DNA from: Phycisphaera mikurensis NBRC 102666
GTDB lineage: Bacteria > Planctomycetota > Phycisphaerae > Phycisphaerales > SM1A02
Length of the DNA stretch: 37,454 nt
Assembly: GCA_945877905.1 (NCBI GenBank)
Contig: CAMDUT010000005.1
Span: 1 to 37,454, forward strand
Direction: 5' to 3'
Shown here: positions 25,934-36,032 of the stretch, piece by piece
Numbering within the stretch: position 1 is the first letter of the stretch
How the letters are laid out: every line of letters begins with the position of its first letter
The notes under the pieces: model-generated
Seen by the model: the letters and a program-made list of their open reading frames with translations, nothing else
Databases searched by the model: none
What the model was told of the DNA's origin: nothing
Translations under genes and position numbers: made by a program

Positions 25934-28900
25934 ATGCCCGCACCGCCCACGTTCTGCGAGCTCGCCGCCGCCAGCAATTTCTCGTTCCTCGAGGGCGCCA
26001 GCCGCCCCGAGGAGGTGGTGGCCCGCGCCGCCGAGCTCGGCATGCCCGCGGTCGCCGTCGCCGACCGCCACACGATGGCCGGCGTCGTGCGGGCCCACGT
26101 GGCCGCGCGCGAGGGGCCGGTGCGGCTGGTGGTGGGCACGCGCTGCGAGTTCATCCTGGGCGCCGACGACGAGCCGTCGCACGTCGAGCTCGTGCTGCTT
26201 GCCGCCTCGGCCGAGGGCTATGCCCGGCTGTGCCGGCTGCTGACCCTGGGCAAGCGCCGCGCCGGGTGGACGCTCGACCTCGAGGCAAGCGCGCTCGCCG
26301 CCGAGGGCGGGGTGCGCGGGCGCCAGGACGCGCGCGACGCCACCGCGTGCCGCCTGTGGCTGCACGACCTCGTCGACGCCTCGGTGCAGGCGCTCGGCTC
26401 GGGCGAGCCCGGGGGCGACGCGCCCGGCGGGCGCATGCCCGACGCGCCGCGCGCGACGGCGCCGACGGCGCTCCCCGGCGTCGAGGCCATCGTGATGCCG
26501 CCCGAGGGCTACGGCGCCATGCAGCCGCGATTCCTGGAGGCCCTGCGATGGCTGCGCACGGCGTTCGACGGCGACCGGCTGTCGCTCGGTTTCGTCAGGC
26601 ACGCGGGACCGGACGACGCGCTGCGCCTGCTGCAGCTGGAGTGGCTGTCGCAGGAGGCGGGCGTGCCGCTCGTGGCCACGAACGACCCGCGCTGCCACGA
26701 TCCCGCGCGCCGGGATCTGCAGGACGTGCTGACGGCGATCCGAGCGCGCCGCACCGTGGACGAGCTGCGTCGCCTCGAGCGCTCGCGCGCGGTGGACCTC
26801 GCGCACGGGTGCGCATGGGACGGACCGCGGCTCGCGCCCGGGGGCGCGCGCGCCATGGCTGGCCATGACGGCATCGTGCGCATCCTCGACGGCGTGCCCG
26901 CGGGCACGGTGGCGGCGGCCGTCGAGCGCTCGGCGGTCGTCGCTGCGCGGTGCGCGGGGTTCTCGATGGACATGCTGCGGTACCGGTGGCCGTCCGAGAC
27001 GGTGCCCGCCGGATGCACTCCCGACGGCCACCTGCGCGCACTGGCCGAGCAGGGCGCCGCCGAGCGCTGGCCGCCGGCGCAGGGCGGTGTGCCGGCGCGC
27101 GTGCGTGCCCAGCTCGAGCACGAGCTCTCGGTGATCGCCGACCTCGGCTACGCGCGCTACTTCCTCACGGTGCACGGGATCGTCGCCTTCGCGCGCGGCC
27201 GCGGCATCCTGTGCCAGGGGCGCGGCGCCGCGGCCAACAGCGCGACGTGCTACTGCCTCGGCATCACGGCGGTCGACCCGTCGCGCGCCGAGATGCTCTT
27301 CGAGCGCTTCATCAGCCGCGAGCGCGACGAACCCCCGGACATCGACGTCGATTTCGAGCACGAGCGGCGCGAGGAGGTCATCCAGAACGTGTACGCGACG
27401 TACGGCCGCGCGCGCGCCGCGCTCTGCGCCGAGGTCGCGTGCTGGCGCGGGCGCAGCGCGATCCGCGGCGTCGGCGCCGCGCTCGGGATGGACGGGGCCC
27501 TGGTCGACCGCCTCGCGCGCGCGGCCGACTGGTGGGGCGAGCTCGACGGCATCGAGGGCCTGCGCGGCCAGCGCGACGGGCGGTGGCGCGACCCGCCCGA
27601 CCGCCCCGCGCGGCTGCGCGAGCTCGGGCTCGACCCCGCGGACCCGGCCATCGCGAGGCTCTTCGCGCTGGCCGGACAGCTCCTCGGGTTCCCGCGGCAC
27701 CTGTCGCAGCACGTGGGGGGCTTCATCGTCACCGACGCGCCGCTCTGCGAGCTGGTGCCCGTGCGCAACGCGGCCATGGAGGACCGCACCGTCATCGAGT
27801 GGGACAAGGACGACGCCGACGCGATGGGCATGCTGAAGGTCGACGTCCTGGCGCTCGGGATGCTGACGGCGATCCGCAAGGCGATCGACCTCTGCAACGC
27901 GCACCCGGTGCCGGGCGTGCCGCGGCCGCTCGCGTACCGCGACGTGCCGCCCGAGGACCCGGCCGTCTACGAGATGGTCTCGCGCGCCGACACGGTGGGG
28001 GTGTTCCAGGTCGAGAGCCGCGCGCAGATGAGCATGCTGCCGCGCCTGCGCCCGCGCTGCTTCTACGACCTCGTGATCGAGGTGGCGATCGTGCGCCCGG
28101 GGCCCATCCAGGGCGACATGGTGCACCCGTACCTGCGCCGCCGCGACGGCACCGACCAGGTCGAGTACCCGAGCGCGGCCGTGCGCGCGGTGCTCGGGCG
28201 CACGCTCGGCGTGCCGCTCTTCCAGGAGCAGGCGATGGCGCTCGCGGTGGTCGCCGCCGGCTTCACCCCGGGCGAGGCCGACCGGCTGCGGCGCGCGATC
28301 GCGGCGTGGAAGCGCTCGGGGAACCGGATCGCGGAGTTCGGCGCGCACCTCGAGCGCGGCATGCTCGAGCGCGGCTACACACGCGAGTTCGCGTGCCAGG
28401 TGTTCCGCCAGATCCAGGGGTTCTCCGGGTACGGGTTCCCCGAGAGCCACGCGGCGAGCTTCGCGCTCCTGGTCTACGTGTCGGCGTGGATCAAGCGGCG
28501 CCACCCGGCGGCGTTCCTGGCGGCGCTCCTCAACAGCCAGCCGATGGGCTTCTACGCGCCCGCGCAGCTGGTGCGCGACGCGCGCGAGCACGGCGTCGAG
28601 GTGCGACCCGTCGACGTCCTGCGCAGCCGGTGGGACTGCACGCTCGAGGACGTGCCCGGCGCGATGCCCGCGGTGCGCATGGGCATGCGCATGGTGTCGG
28701 GCCTCGCCGGGCACGAGGCGCGCGCCATCGAGGGTGCGCTGGCCACGGGTGCCGGCCCGTCCCCGCCCACCATCGAGTCGATCTGGCGCGCGTCCGGCTG
28801 CGGCGTGCGCGCGCTGCGGTGCCTGGCGCGGGCCGATGCGTTCGCGGGGATGGGCGTCCCCCGGCAGCAGGCGCTCTGGCAGGTGCGCACCCTGCGCGGG

Positions 28901-29410
28901 CTCGCCGAGCCCGTGCTCGACCACGCGGCCGGGCAGGGCGCCACGCTCTTCGACCTCGCGCCGCAGCCGCTGCCAGCGGTGACCCCGCTCCGCGCGGTGG
29001 TGGCCGACTACGCGGGCACCGGGCTCTCGCTGCGCGCGCATCCCGTTTCGTTCGTCCGCGACGGGCTCGCGCGCCGCGGGGCGGTCGAGTGCGCGCGCAT
29101 GGCCGCCTTCCGCCGCGCGACGGTGGGCGGGCTCGTGACGTGCCGCCAGCGGCCCTCGACGGCATCAGGCATCCTGTTCGTGACGCTCGAGGACGAGACG
29201 GGCGTCGCCAACCTCATCGTGCGGCCGCGCACCTATGCGCGGTTCCGTGCGGTGGCGCGCCATGCGTCCGCGCTGGTCGCCGAGGGGCGCGTGGAGCACC
29301 GCTCGGGCGTCACGCACCTCATCGTGCGGCGGCTCGTGGACCTGGGGCCGGACCTCGCCCGCGCCGCCGAGGGCGACGCGGTGGGGCGGCGGTCACGGGA
29401 TTTTCGATGA
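25934..29410 (+). CDS. dnaE2: Error-prone DNA polymerase DnaE2 (C-family)
   Basis: A 1158-residue C-family polymerase, normal length for DnaE2, the damage-inducible mutagenic replicase of the ImuA-ImuB-DnaE2 mutasome. Domains in order: an N-terminal PHP domain (about 6-280), a palm with catalytic PDIDVDFEH (Asp469, Asp471) and a third acid Asp637 in LKVDVLAL, a fingers/thumb region with the family signature CQGRGAAANSATCYCLGITAVDP near residue 425, and a C-terminal OB fold from about 1060. The PHP first motif reads CELAAASNFSFLEGAS; the His in ELHC of typical DnaE2 is Ala here, so PHP metal binding is probably lost. The shared operator is upstream. The last 18 bp overlap the opposing Cys-rich gene. 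Confidence 0.93.
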   Translation: MPAPPTFCELAAASNFSFLEGASRPEEVVARAAELGMPAVAVADRHTMAGVVRAHVAAREGPVRLVVGTRCEFILGADDEPSHVELVLLAASAEGYARLCRLLTLGKRRAGWTLDLEASALAAEGGVRGRQDARDATACRLWLHDLVDASVQALGSGEPGGDAPGGRMPDAPRATAPTALPGVEAIVMPPEGYGAMQPRFLEALRWLRTAFDGDRLSLGFVRHAGPDDALRLLQLEWLSQEAGVPLVATNDPRCHDPARRDLQDVLTAIRARRTVDELRRLERSRAVDLAHGCAWDGPRLAPGGARAMAGHDGIVRILDGVPAGTVAAAVERSAVVAARCAGFSMDMLRYRWPSETVPAGCTPDGHLRALAEQGAAERWPPAQGGVPARVRAQLEHELSVIADLGYARYFLTVHGIVAFARGRGILCQGRGAAANSATCYCLGITAVDPSRAEMLFERFISRERDEPPDIDVDFEHERREEVIQNVYATYGRARAALCAEVACWRGRSAIRGVGAALGMDGALVDRLARAADWWGELDGIEGLRGQRDGRWRDPPDRPARLRELGLDPADPAIARLFALAGQLLGFPRHLSQHVGGFIVTDAPLCELVPVRNAAMEDRTVIEWDKDDADAMGMLKVDVLALGMLTAIRKAIDLCNAHPVPGVPRPLAYRDVPPEDPAVYEMVSRADTVGVFQVESRAQMSMLPRLRPRCFYDLVIEVAIVRPGPIQGDMVHPYLRRRDGTDQVEYPSAAVRAVLGRTLGVPLFQEQAMALAVVAAGFTPGEADRLRRAIAAWKRSGNRIAEFGAHLERGMLERGYTREFACQVFRQIQGFSGYGFPESHAASFALLVYVSAWIKRRHPAAFLAALLNSQPMGFYAPAQLVRDAREHGVEVRPVDVLRSRWDCTLEDVPGAMPAVRMGMRMVSGLAGHEARAIEGALATGAGPSPPTIESIWRASGCGVRALRCLARADAFAGMGVPRQQALWQVRTLRGLAEPVLDHAAGQGATLFDLAPQPLPAVTPLRAVVADYAGTGLSLRAHPVSFVRDGLARRGAVECARMAAFRRATVGGLVTCRQRPSTASGILFVTLEDETGVANLIVRPRTYARFRAVARHASALVAEGRVEHRSGVTHLIVRRLVDLGPDLARAAEGDAVGRRSRDFR

Positions 29411-32400
29411 CTTCGCCGGCTCCGCCGCGGCCTTGGCGGGTGCAGGCGCACCCACGCCCGCGGGCTGGGCTGCGGGTGCGACCGTCGGCGCCGTCGGCGG
29501 CGGACGCCGTCGCGGCGGCGGAAGCTGCTTCGGGCGCTGCGGGACCGTCACGCCCGGGGGCGGCGCCACGGGGTCACGCATGGGCGTGCGGGGCATCGCC
29601 GCGGGCGGCACCGACGGCGGGTTGCGGAACCGGCCGGGCTTGACGTCGCCCTTGGGGTCGAGTCCCTCGAGCACGCCCTCGAACGGCGCGCCGCAGAAGA
29701 TGGTCGCGAGCTTCACGCACGACGCATCCCACGAGTCGTCGCAGCAGTCCGGGTCCGCCGCGCACACGAACTGGCAGCAGCCGCCGTCGCTGCAGCCGGG
29801 GTTCAGGTGCGCGGTGAAGCAGCTGCCGCTCGCCGGGTCCCCGCACACGCCCACCTCGCACTCGCACGACGGGGTCTTGCGGGCCAGCTCGACGCAGTTG
29901 GCGTCCCAGCGGGTCTCGCAGCAGAAGGAGTCGAGCGCGCACACCGCGGTGCAGCACGCCTCGTTCGAGCAGTGCGGCACCGGGCTCGCGACGCAGCAGT
30001 TCGGCAGCTCGTCGCTGCCGCAGGTGGGTGCCGGGCATGCCTCGTCCTGGGCGTCGCAGAGTTCGCGCGCCGTGGAGGCGCAGCCTCCGTCCCAGGTGTT
30101 GTCGCAGCAGAACGGGTCGACCTTGCAGACCGTGTCGCAGCAGTCGGCGTCGTCGCACCCGCCGTTGTCGTGCGCGCTGCAGCAGCTGCCTGCGCACGGG
30201 TCGCCGCAGGTGAATCCGCATCCGCAGTCGGGGATGGCGCGTGCCTCGTCGACGCAGTTGATGTCCCAGGTCGACTCGCAGCAGAAGGGGTCGAGCTTGC
30301 ACACGGCGTCGCAGCACGTGGCGTTGGTCGACGCGGGGTCGGCGTGGACGCGGCACGGCGGGCCCGCGGACTCGTCGCCGCACTCCGGCAGCACGCACAC
30401 GTCGGCGTTGTCGGGGTCCTTGGCGAGCGCCACGCACTCGTTGTCCCACTCGACGATGCAGCACTCGGGCCGCAGCTTGCAGATCGCCCCGCAGCACTGG
30501 GGCTGGTTGCAGCCGGGGGTCTCGTGGAAGTCGAACGGGGTGCCGGCGTCCTGCATGCCGCAGGACCGCGCGCAGCGGCGCTGGGCGATCTCGACGCACA
30601 GGGCGTCCCACGCGAACTCGCAGCAGGTGATGTCCTCGCGGCAGACCGTGTCGCAGCAGTTGGGGTCGTCGCAGAAGGGCTCCGCGTGGAGCTCCAGGCA
30701 GGGCTTGTTGCAGCCGGAGCCGCACCCGACGGGACCGCAGCAGTGCAGCCGCGCCAGGCTCACGCACTCCTGGTCCCAGTCGTTCTCGCAGCACGTCGGG
30801 CTGATGTTGCACACGACGGTGCAGCAGCTGCCGCGGTCGCACCCCGGGTTGTCGTGCACGCTGAAGCAGTCGCCGGCGCACGGGCACGGCCACGGCTCGC
30901 CGGACTGCTGCTGGCACCGCTGGCGCGCGATCTGGACGCAGTTGGAGTCCCAGTCGCCGTTGCAGCAGATGGGATCGATGATGCAGGTCGCGTTGCAGCA
31001 GGACGGGTCGTCGCACCCCGGGCCCTGGTGGATCGCGAAGCAGTCCCCCGACGAGGGGCACGAGCCCGGCGACACGCAGATGCCGGCGGCCTGCGTCACG
31101 CACTCCTGGTCCCATGCGTCCGTGCAGCAGCGCGGCGAGATGCTGCAGACGGTGCGCATGCATTGCGCGGACGCGCATCCCGGGCTCTCGTGGGCCTCCA
31201 GGCAGCCCTCGCGCCCGATCTGCGTCGGGAACGTGGCGGTGCAGAGCTGGTCCGCCTGGAACGCGCACACCGAGTCCCAGCGCGTCTCGCAGCAATAGGG
31301 GTCGATGAACTCGCAGATCTTCTCGCAGCAGGCCTGCTGGCTGCAGCCGGTGGTCCAGTAGCTGCCAACCCAGCAGCTGCGCGGCGACTCGCCGCAGGTG
31401 TCGCCGGGGGCGTCGCACTGGACGTTCGCCAGCCCGACGCAGATGTCGTCCCAGGCCTTGCCGCAGCAGATCGGGTCGAGGGCGCACACCCGCTGGCAGC
31501 ATGCCTCGTCCGAGCAGTTGGGGGTGCCGTGCGGCTCGAAGCAGCTCCCCGCGAAGAGGTCGCCGCAGGAGTCGCACGTCTGGGCCGCGAGCTTCGCGCA
31601 GTCGGCCGACCACTCGATCTCGCAGCAGGTGGGGTCGATCTTGCAGACCGCGTCGCAGCAGCCGGGGCGGTCGCACCCCGGGGTCGCGTGCGCCACGAAG
31701 CAGCTTCCGGTCACCGGGAACACGCCGTCGGGCTGCAGCACGCAGCCCGGGTTGATGGTGCAGAGCTGGTCCGCGCCCCGCACGCAGACGCTGTCCCACG
31801 AGGCGAAGCAGCAGTACGGGTCGCGCTGGCAGATGATCTGGCAGCAGAAGGGGTCCGAGCAGCCGCCGTCGCGGTTCTCCTCGAAGCAGCTGATCGCGTC
31901 GCCCTCGGGCGTCTCGCGGCCGCACACGCAGTTCTGGTCCGCGCACTGCGGCTCGGTGAACGCCAGCAGCGTGCACGAGACGTCCCACGCGTTCTCGCAG
32001 CAGAAGGGGTCCTTCGCGCACACGGCCGCGCAGCAGTCGCCGTCGTTGCAGTACGGCGTCGGGTGGATGATGCAGCAGCTCCCGGCGGAAGACGACCCGC
32101 AGCCCGTGCAGCGCTGGGACGCCAGGTTGACGCAGACCTGGTCCCACGTGACGTTGCAGCAGTCGGGGCTGACCTCGCAGACCGCCTCGCAGCACGCCTC
32201 GTTCGAGCAGTACGGTGCGTCGTGCACCTCCTCGCAGTCGCCCGCGACCACCGCGCCGCACTCCAGGCACCGCTCGACGGCGAGGTCCGCGCAGTTGGCG
32301 TCCCAGCGCGTCGAGCAGCACGACGGGTCGAACGTGCACACGAGCTCGCAGCACGCCTCGTCGTTGCACCCGGCGGTGTCGTGCGGCTCCAGGCAGCTCG

Positions 32401-33814
32401 CGTCGGTGATGCCGCACTGGTTGCACGTCTTCTTCGCCAACGCCGCGCAGTTCTCGTCCCAGATCTGCGAGCAGCACGTCGGGTCGAAGTCGCACACGGT
32501 GGTGCAGCAGTCCGGGTCCGTGCACCCGCGACCCGCCGGCTGGGCCTCGAAGCAGCTGCGCGTCGAGCCGTCGGGGTTGAACTCGCCGCAGCCGGTGATG
32601 ACCGCGCTGCACGACGGGTTGCGCACGAACGGCGTGTCGCTCACGGCGGTGATCGTGAACAGGCCGTTGGTCATCCGGTTCGCGATCACCGGGTTCGACG
32701 CAGAGCGGCATCGGTACGGGTGGATCGGCGCGACCTGCGTGCCCGCGGAGCCGATCGGGCCGAGCTCGTTCTTGTCGCCGCGATTGGCGAAGACGCATCC
32801 GTAGGTGGAGACCTGCTCGCCGCGGATCAGGGTCATCGCGTCGACGATCGCGTCCCACGGGGGAAGGGTGCCCGACCCGGGCACGAGCCAGGGCAGCGCG
32901 CACTGCGTGTCCGGGTCGTTGAACGCGCCGCTCACGCGCTGGCCGACGGCGGGGAAGGCGCGCGTGTTCGCGGGGTCCGGGTCGCGGTACACGATGAGGT
33001 GGGTGACGTTGGTGCTGATCTCGTTCGGGAACGTGATCCCGCCGACCGTGCCGGGCAGGGCGAGCGAACCTCCCGGCGGCAGCGGGAACTCCCACTGGCG
33101 CGAGTTCAGCGGGACCGCGTCCGGCACCGGCGTCGCGGCCACGAACGAGCCGTCCGTGACCAGGGACAGGCCCGACGAGAAGTCGGCGTTGACCGGGTCG
33201 TTGACCCACGGCATGCCCTCGAGGTCGACGACGACGCCGATGGTCCCGTAGAGCGCCGTGGCGCTCGAGCTGCGTGCGACCTTCAGGTAGAACCAGCCCT
33301 CGCCGTAGAGCCGCGTCGAGTTCGACGGGTCCGCGGGGTTCGGGATGTCGATCGAGGGGAATGCGCCTGCGGGCGCGTTGAGCGGGGTGCGGATCTCGAC
33401 GTACCGCGACTGCGGGATCGCGGGGTTCGTCTGCGACGCCGGCTTGCCGACGCGCACCTCGGAGATGATGGCCCTGGGCAGCTTGCCGATCGCGGGGTTC
33501 GCCGCCATCTGCACCAGGCGCTCGAGGTAGTTGAGGTCGTTCTGGTCGATCAGCCCGTCGTAGTTGAAGTCACCCCACTGGCAGTAGACGCCGGAGGCCG
33601 CGAGGTTGTCGCGGATGCACGCGGCCCAGAAGTCCACGTCGTCCGCGTTGACGCGCTGGTCGTTGTTGAGGTCCCCAAGGAACAGCGACTCGCGCGCGAG
33701 GTTGCATGCGCCCGCCGGGTCCGTGCATTGCGCACGCGCGTCCCGCAGCACGCCGAGGAGGCTTGCGACGAGGGCGAGTGCGAGCAGGAACGACGAGCGG
33801 ACTTCACGAACCAT
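29393..33814 (-). CDS. Giant secreted Cys-rich repeat protein with dockerin-like calcium loops
   Basis: A 1473-residue protein. Residues 1-28 form a signal peptide (cut near ARA-QC). Two EF-hand-like loops follow, DLNNDQRVNADDV and DFNYDGLIDQNDL, the dockerin type I pattern. A non-repetitive beta-rich region runs to about residue 420; its start (ISEVRV, then YVEI) faintly resembles lamin-tail domains. Then come 17 tandem Cys-rich repeats (421-1380) and a Pro/Ala-rich, basic tail (1381-1473). Start ATG 33814 is chosen because it begins the signal peptide; the in-frame upstream extension adds an implausible segment. The gene stands alone between uppS and dnaE2. I do not know a characterised family with this repeat. 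A disulfide-stabilised extracellular, adhesive or protective role is inference. Confidence 0.85.
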   Translation of the reverse strand: MVREVRSSFLLALALVASLLGVLRDARAQCTDPAGACNLARESLFLGDLNNDQRVNADDVDFWAACIRDNLAASGVYCQWGDFNYDGLIDQNDLNYLERLVQMAANPAIGKLPRAIISEVRVGKPASQTNPAIPQSRYVEIRTPLNAPAGAFPSIDIPNPADPSNSTRLYGEGWFYLKVARSSSATALYGTIGVVVDLEGMPWVNDPVNADFSSGLSLVTDGSFVAATPVPDAVPLNSRQWEFPLPPGGSLALPGTVGGITFPNEISTNVTHLIVYRDPDPANTRAFPAVGQRVSGAFNDPDTQCALPWLVPGSGTLPPWDAIVDAMTLIRGEQVSTYGCVFANRGDKNELGPIGSAGTQVAPIHPYRCRSASNPVIANRMTNGLFTITAVSDTPFVRNPSCSAVITGCGEFNPDGSTRSCFEAQPAGRGCTDPDCCTTVCDFDPTCCSQIWDENCAALAKKTCNQCGITDASCLEPHDTAGCNDEACCELVCTFDPSCCSTRWDANCADLAVERCLECGAVVAGDCEEVHDAPYCSNEACCEAVCEVSPDCCNVTWDQVCVNLASQRCTGCGSSSAGSCCIIHPTPYCNDGDCCAAVCAKDPFCCENAWDVSCTLLAFTEPQCADQNCVCGRETPEGDAISCFEENRDGGCSDPFCCQIICQRDPYCCFASWDSVCVRGADQLCTINPGCVLQPDGVFPVTGSCFVAHATPGCDRPGCCDAVCKIDPTCCEIEWSADCAKLAAQTCDSCGDLFAGSCFEPHGTPNCSDEACCQRVCALDPICCGKAWDDICVGLANVQCDAPGDTCGESPRSCWVGSYWTTGCSQQACCEKICEFIDPYCCETRWDSVCAFQADQLCTATFPTQIGREGCLEAHESPGCASAQCMRTVCSISPRCCTDAWDQECVTQAAGICVSPGSCPSSGDCFAIHQGPGCDDPSCCNATCIIDPICCNGDWDSNCVQIARQRCQQQSGEPWPCPCAGDCFSVHDNPGCDRGSCCTVVCNISPTCCENDWDQECVSLARLHCCGPVGCGSGCNKPCLELHAEPFCDDPNCCDTVCREDITCCEFAWDALCVEIAQRRCARSCGMQDAGTPFDFHETPGCNQPQCCGAICKLRPECCIVEWDNECVALAKDPDNADVCVLPECGDESAGPPCRVHADPASTNATCCDAVCKLDPFCCESTWDINCVDEARAIPDCGCGFTCGDPCAGSCCSAHDNGGCDDADCCDTVCKVDPFCCDNTWDGGCASTARELCDAQDEACPAPTCGSDELPNCCVASPVPHCSNEACCTAVCALDSFCCETRWDANCVELARKTPSCECEVGVCGDPASGSCFTAHLNPGCSDGGCCQFVCAADPDCCDDSWDASCVKLATIFCGAPFEGVLEGLDPKGDVKPGRFRNPPSVPPAAMPRTPMRDPVAPPPGVTVPQRPKQLPPPRRRPPPTAPTVAPAAQPAGVGAPAPAKAAAEPAKSSKIP
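29675..32554 (-). repeat. 17 tandem Cys-rich protein repeats, about 56 residues each
   Basis: In translation each unit follows the order C..(x)H..PGC, then CC..VC..DP.CC, then WD..C and a Cys-containing spacer; total 960 residues. Length variation is confined mainly to the spacer after the last Cys. Units 9 and 14 lose one or two of the conserved cysteines (CMRTVC in unit 9; no Cys in ADPAST of unit 14), and unit 13 begins with Pro instead of Cys. The DNA copies have diverged, so this is an old protein-level repeat, not a recent DNA duplication. Confidence 0.9.
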
Positions 33815-33904: not shown

Positions 33905-34634
33905 TCACGGTGCCGGGACGCCCCGTGGCAGCCCCCCGTAGGTGCGTTGGCGCGCGCCGAAGTCATCGAGCGCTGCGCGCAATTCGGCCTCCCGGAACTC
34001 GGGCCAGAGCACGTCCGTCACGTGCAGTTCGGCGTAGCTCAGTTGCCACAGCAGGAAGTTGGAAAGGCGCCGCTCGCCCGCCGTCCGGATGAGCAGGTCC
34101 GGGTCGGGCAGGCCGCGCGTGTCGAGCGCACCCGAAATCGCGTCCTCGTCGATGTCCGTGGGCCCCAGTTCGCCCCGGCGGACCCGTTGCGCAAGCGCGC
34201 GCACGGCGTCGACCATCTCCTGGCGCGCCCCGTAGTTCATCGCCAGGCACAGCGTCATCCCGCGGCAGCGGCTCGTCTCGTCCTCGGTGCGGTCGAGCTC
34301 GGCGAGCACCGGCGCGGGGAGTCCCTCGCGACGGCCGATGCGGCGGAATCGCACGTCGTTGGCGAGCATCATCTGGCGCTCGAGCTGCAGGTGGTGCCGG
34401 GCGAGCTCCATGAGCGCCGTCACCTCGTCCTCCGGCCGCTTCCAGTTCTCGCTCGAGAACGAGTAGAGCGTCAGCGCCTGCACGCCGAGGCGTGCGCATT
34501 CCTCGACCACCCCTCGCACGCGACGCGCGCCCTCGCGATGCCCCGCGATGCGCGGCAACCCGCGCGACTCGGCCCAGCGGCCGTTGCCGTCCATGATGAT
34601 CGCGACGTGCCGTGGAACGCGCGCCGGCGCGGGT

Positions 34635-34642
<8 letters not shown>
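33905..34642 (-). CDS. uppS: Isoprenyl transferase (undecaprenyl diphosphate synthase)
   Basis: A 245-residue cis-prenyltransferase. It condenses isopentenyl diphosphate onto farnesyl diphosphate to make undecaprenyl diphosphate, the lipid carrier for peptidoglycan and surface polysaccharides. The pattern HVAIIMDGNGRWAESRGLPR carries the catalytic Asp18; GHREGARRVRGVVEEC, LYSFSSENWKRP, DLLIRTAGERRLSNFLLWQ and the C-terminal DVLWPEF are all family landmarks. Length is normal. Its ATG lies 8 bases inside the 3' end of purA, so the two are translated as an operon. Cytoplasmic, membrane-associated. Confidence 0.95.
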
Positions 34643-35996
<1,354 letters not shown>

Positions 35997-36032
35997 CGGG
36001 CGCGGGTCCTTGGGGAGCACCGGATCGTACCC

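Follow-up and report, generated by a model that had tools for sequence, protein, structure and literature searches.

Results

An exported protein with seventeen cysteine-rich units

The window analyzed here, by which we mean the whole stretch of 37,454 nucleotides, encodes on its minus strand (29393..33814) an exported protein of 1473 amino acids that carries a long array of cysteine-rich units. The open reading frame runs from 33874 to 29393, and translation likely starts at its Met21, at 33814, 90 bases past the end of uppS. As read from their translations, the neighboring genes are uppS, which encodes undecaprenyl diphosphate synthase and lies upstream (33905..34642, minus strand), purA, which encodes adenylosuccinate synthetase (34635..36020, minus strand), and a convergent dnaE2-type gene for DNA polymerase III alpha (25934..29410, plus strand). 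At their 3' ends, the array gene and dnaE2 share 18 bases (29393-29410 of the window). The order purA-uppS-array-dnaE2 is found within the genus of the window, and uppS also adjoins the array in L059, L181 and L196.

The protein begins with a signal peptide, MVREVRSSFLLALALVASLLGVLRDARA followed by Q (33731..33814), read by eye from its basic n-region, hydrophobic core and AxA site. It is followed by a dockerin-like pair of Ca-loop motifs (aa 66-119, 33518..33679), which scores 17.7 bits against PF00404, below the cut-off of 22.9, while the homolog L059 scores 23.1, above it. Next comes an N-terminal domain of about 300 residues (aa 122-430, 32585..33511) for which neither the protein itself nor three homologs gave a Pfam match at E<=10, lamin-tail models included; an IISEV..YVEI motif in this domain bears a faint resemblance to lamin-tail domains. 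The array occupies aa 440-1404 (29663..32557) and holds 176 cysteines, and the protein closes with a proline-rich, basic tail (29396..29662; 14 K/R, 4 D/E and 27 P in 88 residues) that is present in every congeneric ortholog checked. All these features lie on the minus strand. The ratio dN/dS, taken only from the closest ortholog (L202; the dS of 0.51 against L208 looks unreliable), is 0.20 for the array and 0.09 for the N-terminal part.

A preliminary description of this DNA had placed a 17-unit cysteine-rich array at 29675-32554. We confirm 17 units, at 29663..32557 on the minus strand, with a framework that is far beyond chance: a protein regular expression for the core of the unit gives 16 matches, compared with a mean of 0.002 and a maximum of 1 in shuffled sequences, and a degenerate DNA pattern gives 11 matches and none in 100 dinucleotide shuffles. 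The count of about eight cysteines per unit given at that time was too low, since units typically have 10 or 12 and ten is the rule. Seven units have 10 cysteines (unit 1, 32402..32557; unit 2, 32243..32401; unit 3, 32084..32242; unit 5, 31709..31894; unit 6, 31550..31708; unit 7, 31376..31549; unit 12, 30545..30706), and four have 12 (unit 4, 31895..32083; unit 11, 30707..30874; unit 15, 30005..30190; unit 16, 29828..30004). Nine cysteines are found in another four (unit 8, 31211..31375; unit 9, 31049..31210, where C4 is replaced by Met; unit 13, 30365..30544, which lacks C1; unit 17, 29663..29827) and 11 in the remaining two (unit 10, 30875..31048; unit 14, 30191..30364, which lacks C1 and C2 and has a C1'). 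Altogether, cysteine makes up 18% of the array residues. The framework as first drawn stood in its tryptophan and in the CC that precedes it, both present in 17/17 units, with Asp after the Trp in 16/17; it did not stand in its histidine, present in 13/17, or in PGC, which occurs in only some units.

Tandem Repeats Finder detected no DNA-level repeat in the array region, and the mean amino-acid identity among the window units is 42%, which together indicate that the array is old and not a recent expansion. A recent tandem expansion is further contradicted by the greater likeness of orthologous units to one another than of units within one array. The linkers between units differ by about ten residues.

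Predicted fold and pairing of the cysteines

The preliminary description had proposed structure prediction for one and for three units. AlphaFold2 models of a single unit (unit 2, with 72 diverse units as input; pLDDT 86, pTM 0.68) and of three units (25 natural triples as input; pLDDT 90, pTM 0.62) predict three short helices in every unit, with the invariant Trp between helices 2 and 3. In 535 units, a conserved Asp stands just before each of the three predicted helices (in 66%, 81% and 93% of the units), positions that would suit helix caps. Three sub-types of unit can be told apart: type I (C3C4, planctomycete style), type II (myxobacterial, CxHxxC...CxxC) and type III (C1' and a shifted Cys).

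The number of cysteines is even in 168 units of tandem arrays and odd in 42 (p 2e-19, uncorrected for relatedness). Moreover, among the 535 non-redundant units, C5 and C7 are never lost one without the other (6/6), the loss of C1 and C2 is mostly joint (41 both, 11 singly), and an extra Cys beside C1 accompanies an extra, third Cys after C8 (61/82 versus 48/294; p 9e-23, a value that ignores relatedness). The even counts and the paired losses support self-contained disulfides. The disulfide-rich character proposed earlier is backed by cysteine parity and co-loss, which fall short of chemical proof. From these patterns we infer that C1-C2 and C5-C7 would form disulfides, and the way in which cysteines swap suggests that C4, or C1' in the types without C4, may pair with a Cys after C8. 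In this regard, units 8 and 9 (31375..31049) both have an odd number of cysteines, which is kept in four orthologs (L202, L203, L208 and L196), and since they are adjacent, an inter-unit bond between the neighbors is possible.

A search of 14 genomes of the genus (that of the window and 13 others) brought up neither DsbA (PF01323) nor VKOR; these are draft MAGs, in which a divergent oxidase could be overlooked. DsbB and Thioredoxin_4 were not found in the genome of the window. These negative results stand against hundreds of exported cysteines. Three relatives (G019, G020 and G024) carry units together with DsbA-VKOR, so that no simple correlation is seen. The missing Dsb enzymes would be explained if the cysteines were reduced or metal-binding, in a metallothionein-like store of thiols or metal, and a cysteine content as high as that of the array would also fit. 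We consider such a store very improbable, given that the protein has a signal peptide, a strict framework, an invariant Trp and predicted helices, that disulfides account better for parity and pairwise co-loss, and that the three relatives just named combine units with DsbA-VKOR.

Comparison with named families

The preliminary description had recognized no known family, and this holds for Pfam, NCBIfam, PHROGs and PADLOC, and for the PDB searched by profile and by fold. The whole protein gave no credible match to the Cys-rich unit in the first four libraries, its Pfam scan gave no match of any kind to the array, and 72 single units searched against Pfam and NCBIfam likewise gave no credible match. 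The profile and Pfam search proposed at that time brought up no named domain family with the same Cys and Trp pattern, and the unit profile found no convincing chain in the PDB. Foldseek searches with the models of one and three units returned nothing from the PDB at E<=10 and nothing significant from BFVD; since Foldseek is weak for chains so small, the novelty of the fold is less certain than that of the sequence. The literature searched held no description of this Cys-rich repeat. We are confident that the unit is a real and widespread domain that none of the libraries searched has named.

The second half of the window unit (C..C.....CC......C) is akin in cysteine order and spacing to the somatomedin-B domain. 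Given that the 72 units had no Pfam match to somatomedin B (PF01033) and that no profile or fold match emerged from the PDB, this identity was rejected, and we treat the likeness as chance or convergence.

The closest idea for function comes from TraA of Myxococcus, in which the Cys-rich repeats have been proposed as a rigid stalk bearing a head at the N-terminus (PMC3325183). TraA resembles the protein described here in being bacterial and exported and in having numerous Cys-rich repeats in tandem. The model of its repeat, TIGR04201 (Myxo_Cys_RPT), has 22 positions and three invariant cysteines, whereas the window unit has about 50 residues, ten cysteines and predicted helices. The best match to TIGR04201 in the genome lies on another contig and scores 14.7 bits, with a cut-off of 25, and the array protein has none, so this identity was also rejected. 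None of the tests run showed the TraA repeats and the window units to be related.

Distribution of the unit

The distribution was established with the degenerate DNA pattern, no stretch of 7-10 columns being conserved enough for an alignment-based scan. The earlier supposition that similar repeats exist unnamed in planctomycete proteins proved right but too narrow, as units also occur in Myxococcota, Bacteroidota and others. Among the matches listed are Phycisphaerales, other Planctomycetota, Myxococcota (Sorangium, Minicystis, Corallococcus and Paraliomyxa), Flavobacteriales, Crocinitomicaceae, Wenzhouxiangella and some IMG/VR contigs, the unit being common, among these matches, in one Phycisphaerales family and in Myxococcota and less frequent in Bacteroidota and other groups. 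An even sample of 392 Planctomycetota genomes contained 9 positives, all in the family of the window, where 9 of the 10 listed members were positive. The genome of the window has 25 unit matches and that of Paraliomyxa has 55; Myxococcales MAG_56 (G426, L103) has at least 150 unit copies in a genome of 7.2 Mb. PLSDB and INPHARED, databases of plasmids and phages, gave no match, and we rejected plasmid or phage cargo; a few IMG/VR contigs carry convincing units. In two IMG/VR contigs classed as viral (L047 and L048), the unit lies behind a BACON domain, close to the C-terminus of a protein of 1.1-1.2 kaa.

Most other proteins with the unit have one to four copies. The exported proteins concerned combine one unit or a short run of units with a peptidase (M43, M36-like or S8), MopE repeats, dockerin or a T9SS sorting tail, and secreted proteases are frequent bearers of the unit. 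In many single-unit proteins the C-terminus is a dockerin-like DLNxDGxVxGxDLGxLLxxWG tail, resembling a signal for sorting or anchoring. With the definition of this widespread extracellular module, unnamed in the libraries searched, a part becomes recognizable in many secreted proteases and surface proteins.

Conservation of number, order and framework

The copy number of tandem repeats in bacterial surface proteins is generally regarded as variable. The seven complete congeneric orthologs examined (L202, L203, L204, L205, L206, L208 and L210) each carry exactly 17 units, in one and the same order, as counted by alignment and a looser motif; a stricter regular expression gave 13-16 in several. 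At 54-89% identity, these seven orthologs keep 176/176 cysteines, in agreement with the result from a Cys-neutral matrix, and orthologous units correspond position by position along the array. In other genera, the 17-unit arrays (L196, L092 and L233) are in register at an offset of 0, and the 19-unit arrays (L216 and L200) at an offset of +2, their two additional units standing at the front (permutation p 0.0005 for the unit-by-unit register across genera). In diverged orthologs the non-framework columns are mostly at 8-25% identity, while Cys, Trp, Asp and Ala of the framework are at about 90-100%, a pattern of free and kept columns that points to a scaffold and not to a conserved binding face.

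The head of the protein is less constant than the array. In L092 and L233, the 17 units directly follow the signal peptide, with no dockerin-like head. One gene for an exported FG-GAP protein, in which the HExxHxxGxxH motif was not seen, lies between uppS and the array in L092 (array at L092:4064-6913). In the vicinity of the L233 array uppS was not seen, and the product of the gene just upstream has an M12B reprolysin-like domain, FG-GAP repeats and an HExxHxxGxxH zinc site of the M12B type; this neighbor keeps a link to proteases possible. The headless arrays and their differing neighbors indicate that the array is the constant part and that its cargo or partner can differ.

Discussion

We propose, with a probability of roughly 45%, that the array is a fixed-length, disulfide-stiffened surface stalk or spacer. 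Each unit would be a bead of about 50 residues that folds independently, contains three short helices and is held by five, sometimes six, disulfides, and 17 such beads in fixed order would stack into a stiff, exported stalk or spacer of set length. As for the direction, anchoring and cargo of such a rod, it would most likely hold the dockerin-like N-terminal part at a distance from the cell, and its basic, proline-rich tail would probably lie near an anionic envelope. Since framework and unit count are frozen and the outward positions are free, we favor a structural spacer or stalk of set length over a ligand-binding scaffold. The long, disulfide-stabilized rod of the preliminary description remains an inference, the three-unit model being confident residue by residue, with a pLDDT of 90. 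Against a stalk, the pTM of that model is only 0.62, the rod shape being a prediction, and the variation of about ten residues in the linkers suggests that the chain may be flexible. Also against it, the arrays of L092 and L233 have no head to carry, a stalk is an unnatural reading for the proteins with one to four copies, and DsbA and VKOR were not found in the 14 congeneric genomes, nor DsbB in that of the window. A stalk with a dockerin head has the added difficulties that the dockerin scores below its cut-off and that its cohesin partner was not found in the genome.

Planctomycetes are also reported to have Cys-rich YTV proteins, which occur in cell-wall preparations (PMC8567305). They share with the array protein their richness in cysteine and their planctomycete origin, a likeness by description alone, whereas they are reported only in Planctomycetales and the relatives of the window belong to Phycisphaerales. 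By analogy with what has been proposed for the YTV proteins, the array could belong to a wall or coat that is covalent and rich in cystine, cross-linked by bonds between molecules, instead of being a free stalk. An array in such a coat would need no head, as in L092 and L233, and the odd cysteine number that units 8, 9 and 17 have across species would leave cysteines for outside bonds. Nevertheless, the even counts of most units allow most bonds to close within the unit, the total of 176 is even, the adjacent odd units could pair mutually, and exactly 17 units would be unnecessary for a coat protein. Overall, we think that a cross-linked envelope protein is unlikely.

A third reading is a binding role for the units, with ligands or peptidases as targets, by which the array would organize exported proteolysis, and the single copies on proteases would be substrate- or surface-binding modules. 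Consistent with this, M43, M36-like and S8 peptidases carry one to four copies, the array of L233 is preceded by the M12B reprolysin-like/FG-GAP gene and that of L092 by a related neighbor with FG-GAP repeats, and the units are position-specific and stand in fixed order. In addition, the 'planctosome', a surface complex of dockerin, lamin-tail and M12B peptidases, is proposed for the freshwater Nemodlikiaceae in the passages of one study that treat the complex (PMC6461901). That work likewise concerns freshwater Phycisphaerae, and the relative L092 comes from one of its MAGs; those same passages make no mention of Cys-rich units (PMC6461901). The genome of the window differs in having no cohesin: it has 24 dockerin-type matches and 0 matches to cohesin PF00963, so that docking by cohesin is not supported there. 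Non-framework positions that are mostly at 8-25% identity even between orthologous units, with no shared binding face seen, and an upstream neighbor that in the genus of the window is uppS and not a peptidase, argue against a binding role, to which we would give low odds.

Returning to the stalk or spacer, it is tempting to go one step further and regard the repeat number as a heritable ruler, with 17 beads whose order is frozen across the family, built from a new helical domain of ten cysteines and oxidized outside DsbA, DsbB and VKOR, although this extended version is doubtful. The fixed copy number, unlike that of the usual variable repeats, opens a length or ruler function to direct testing, and the array raises the question of how a genus without a recognized Dsb pathway would make up to 88 disulfides. 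The unit can also be found in what is likely a recent tandem expansion, unlike the frozen array of the window: in Paraliomyxa miuraensis (G420:C72:465638-467767), five units with equal scores follow one another at an exact spacing of 330 bases.
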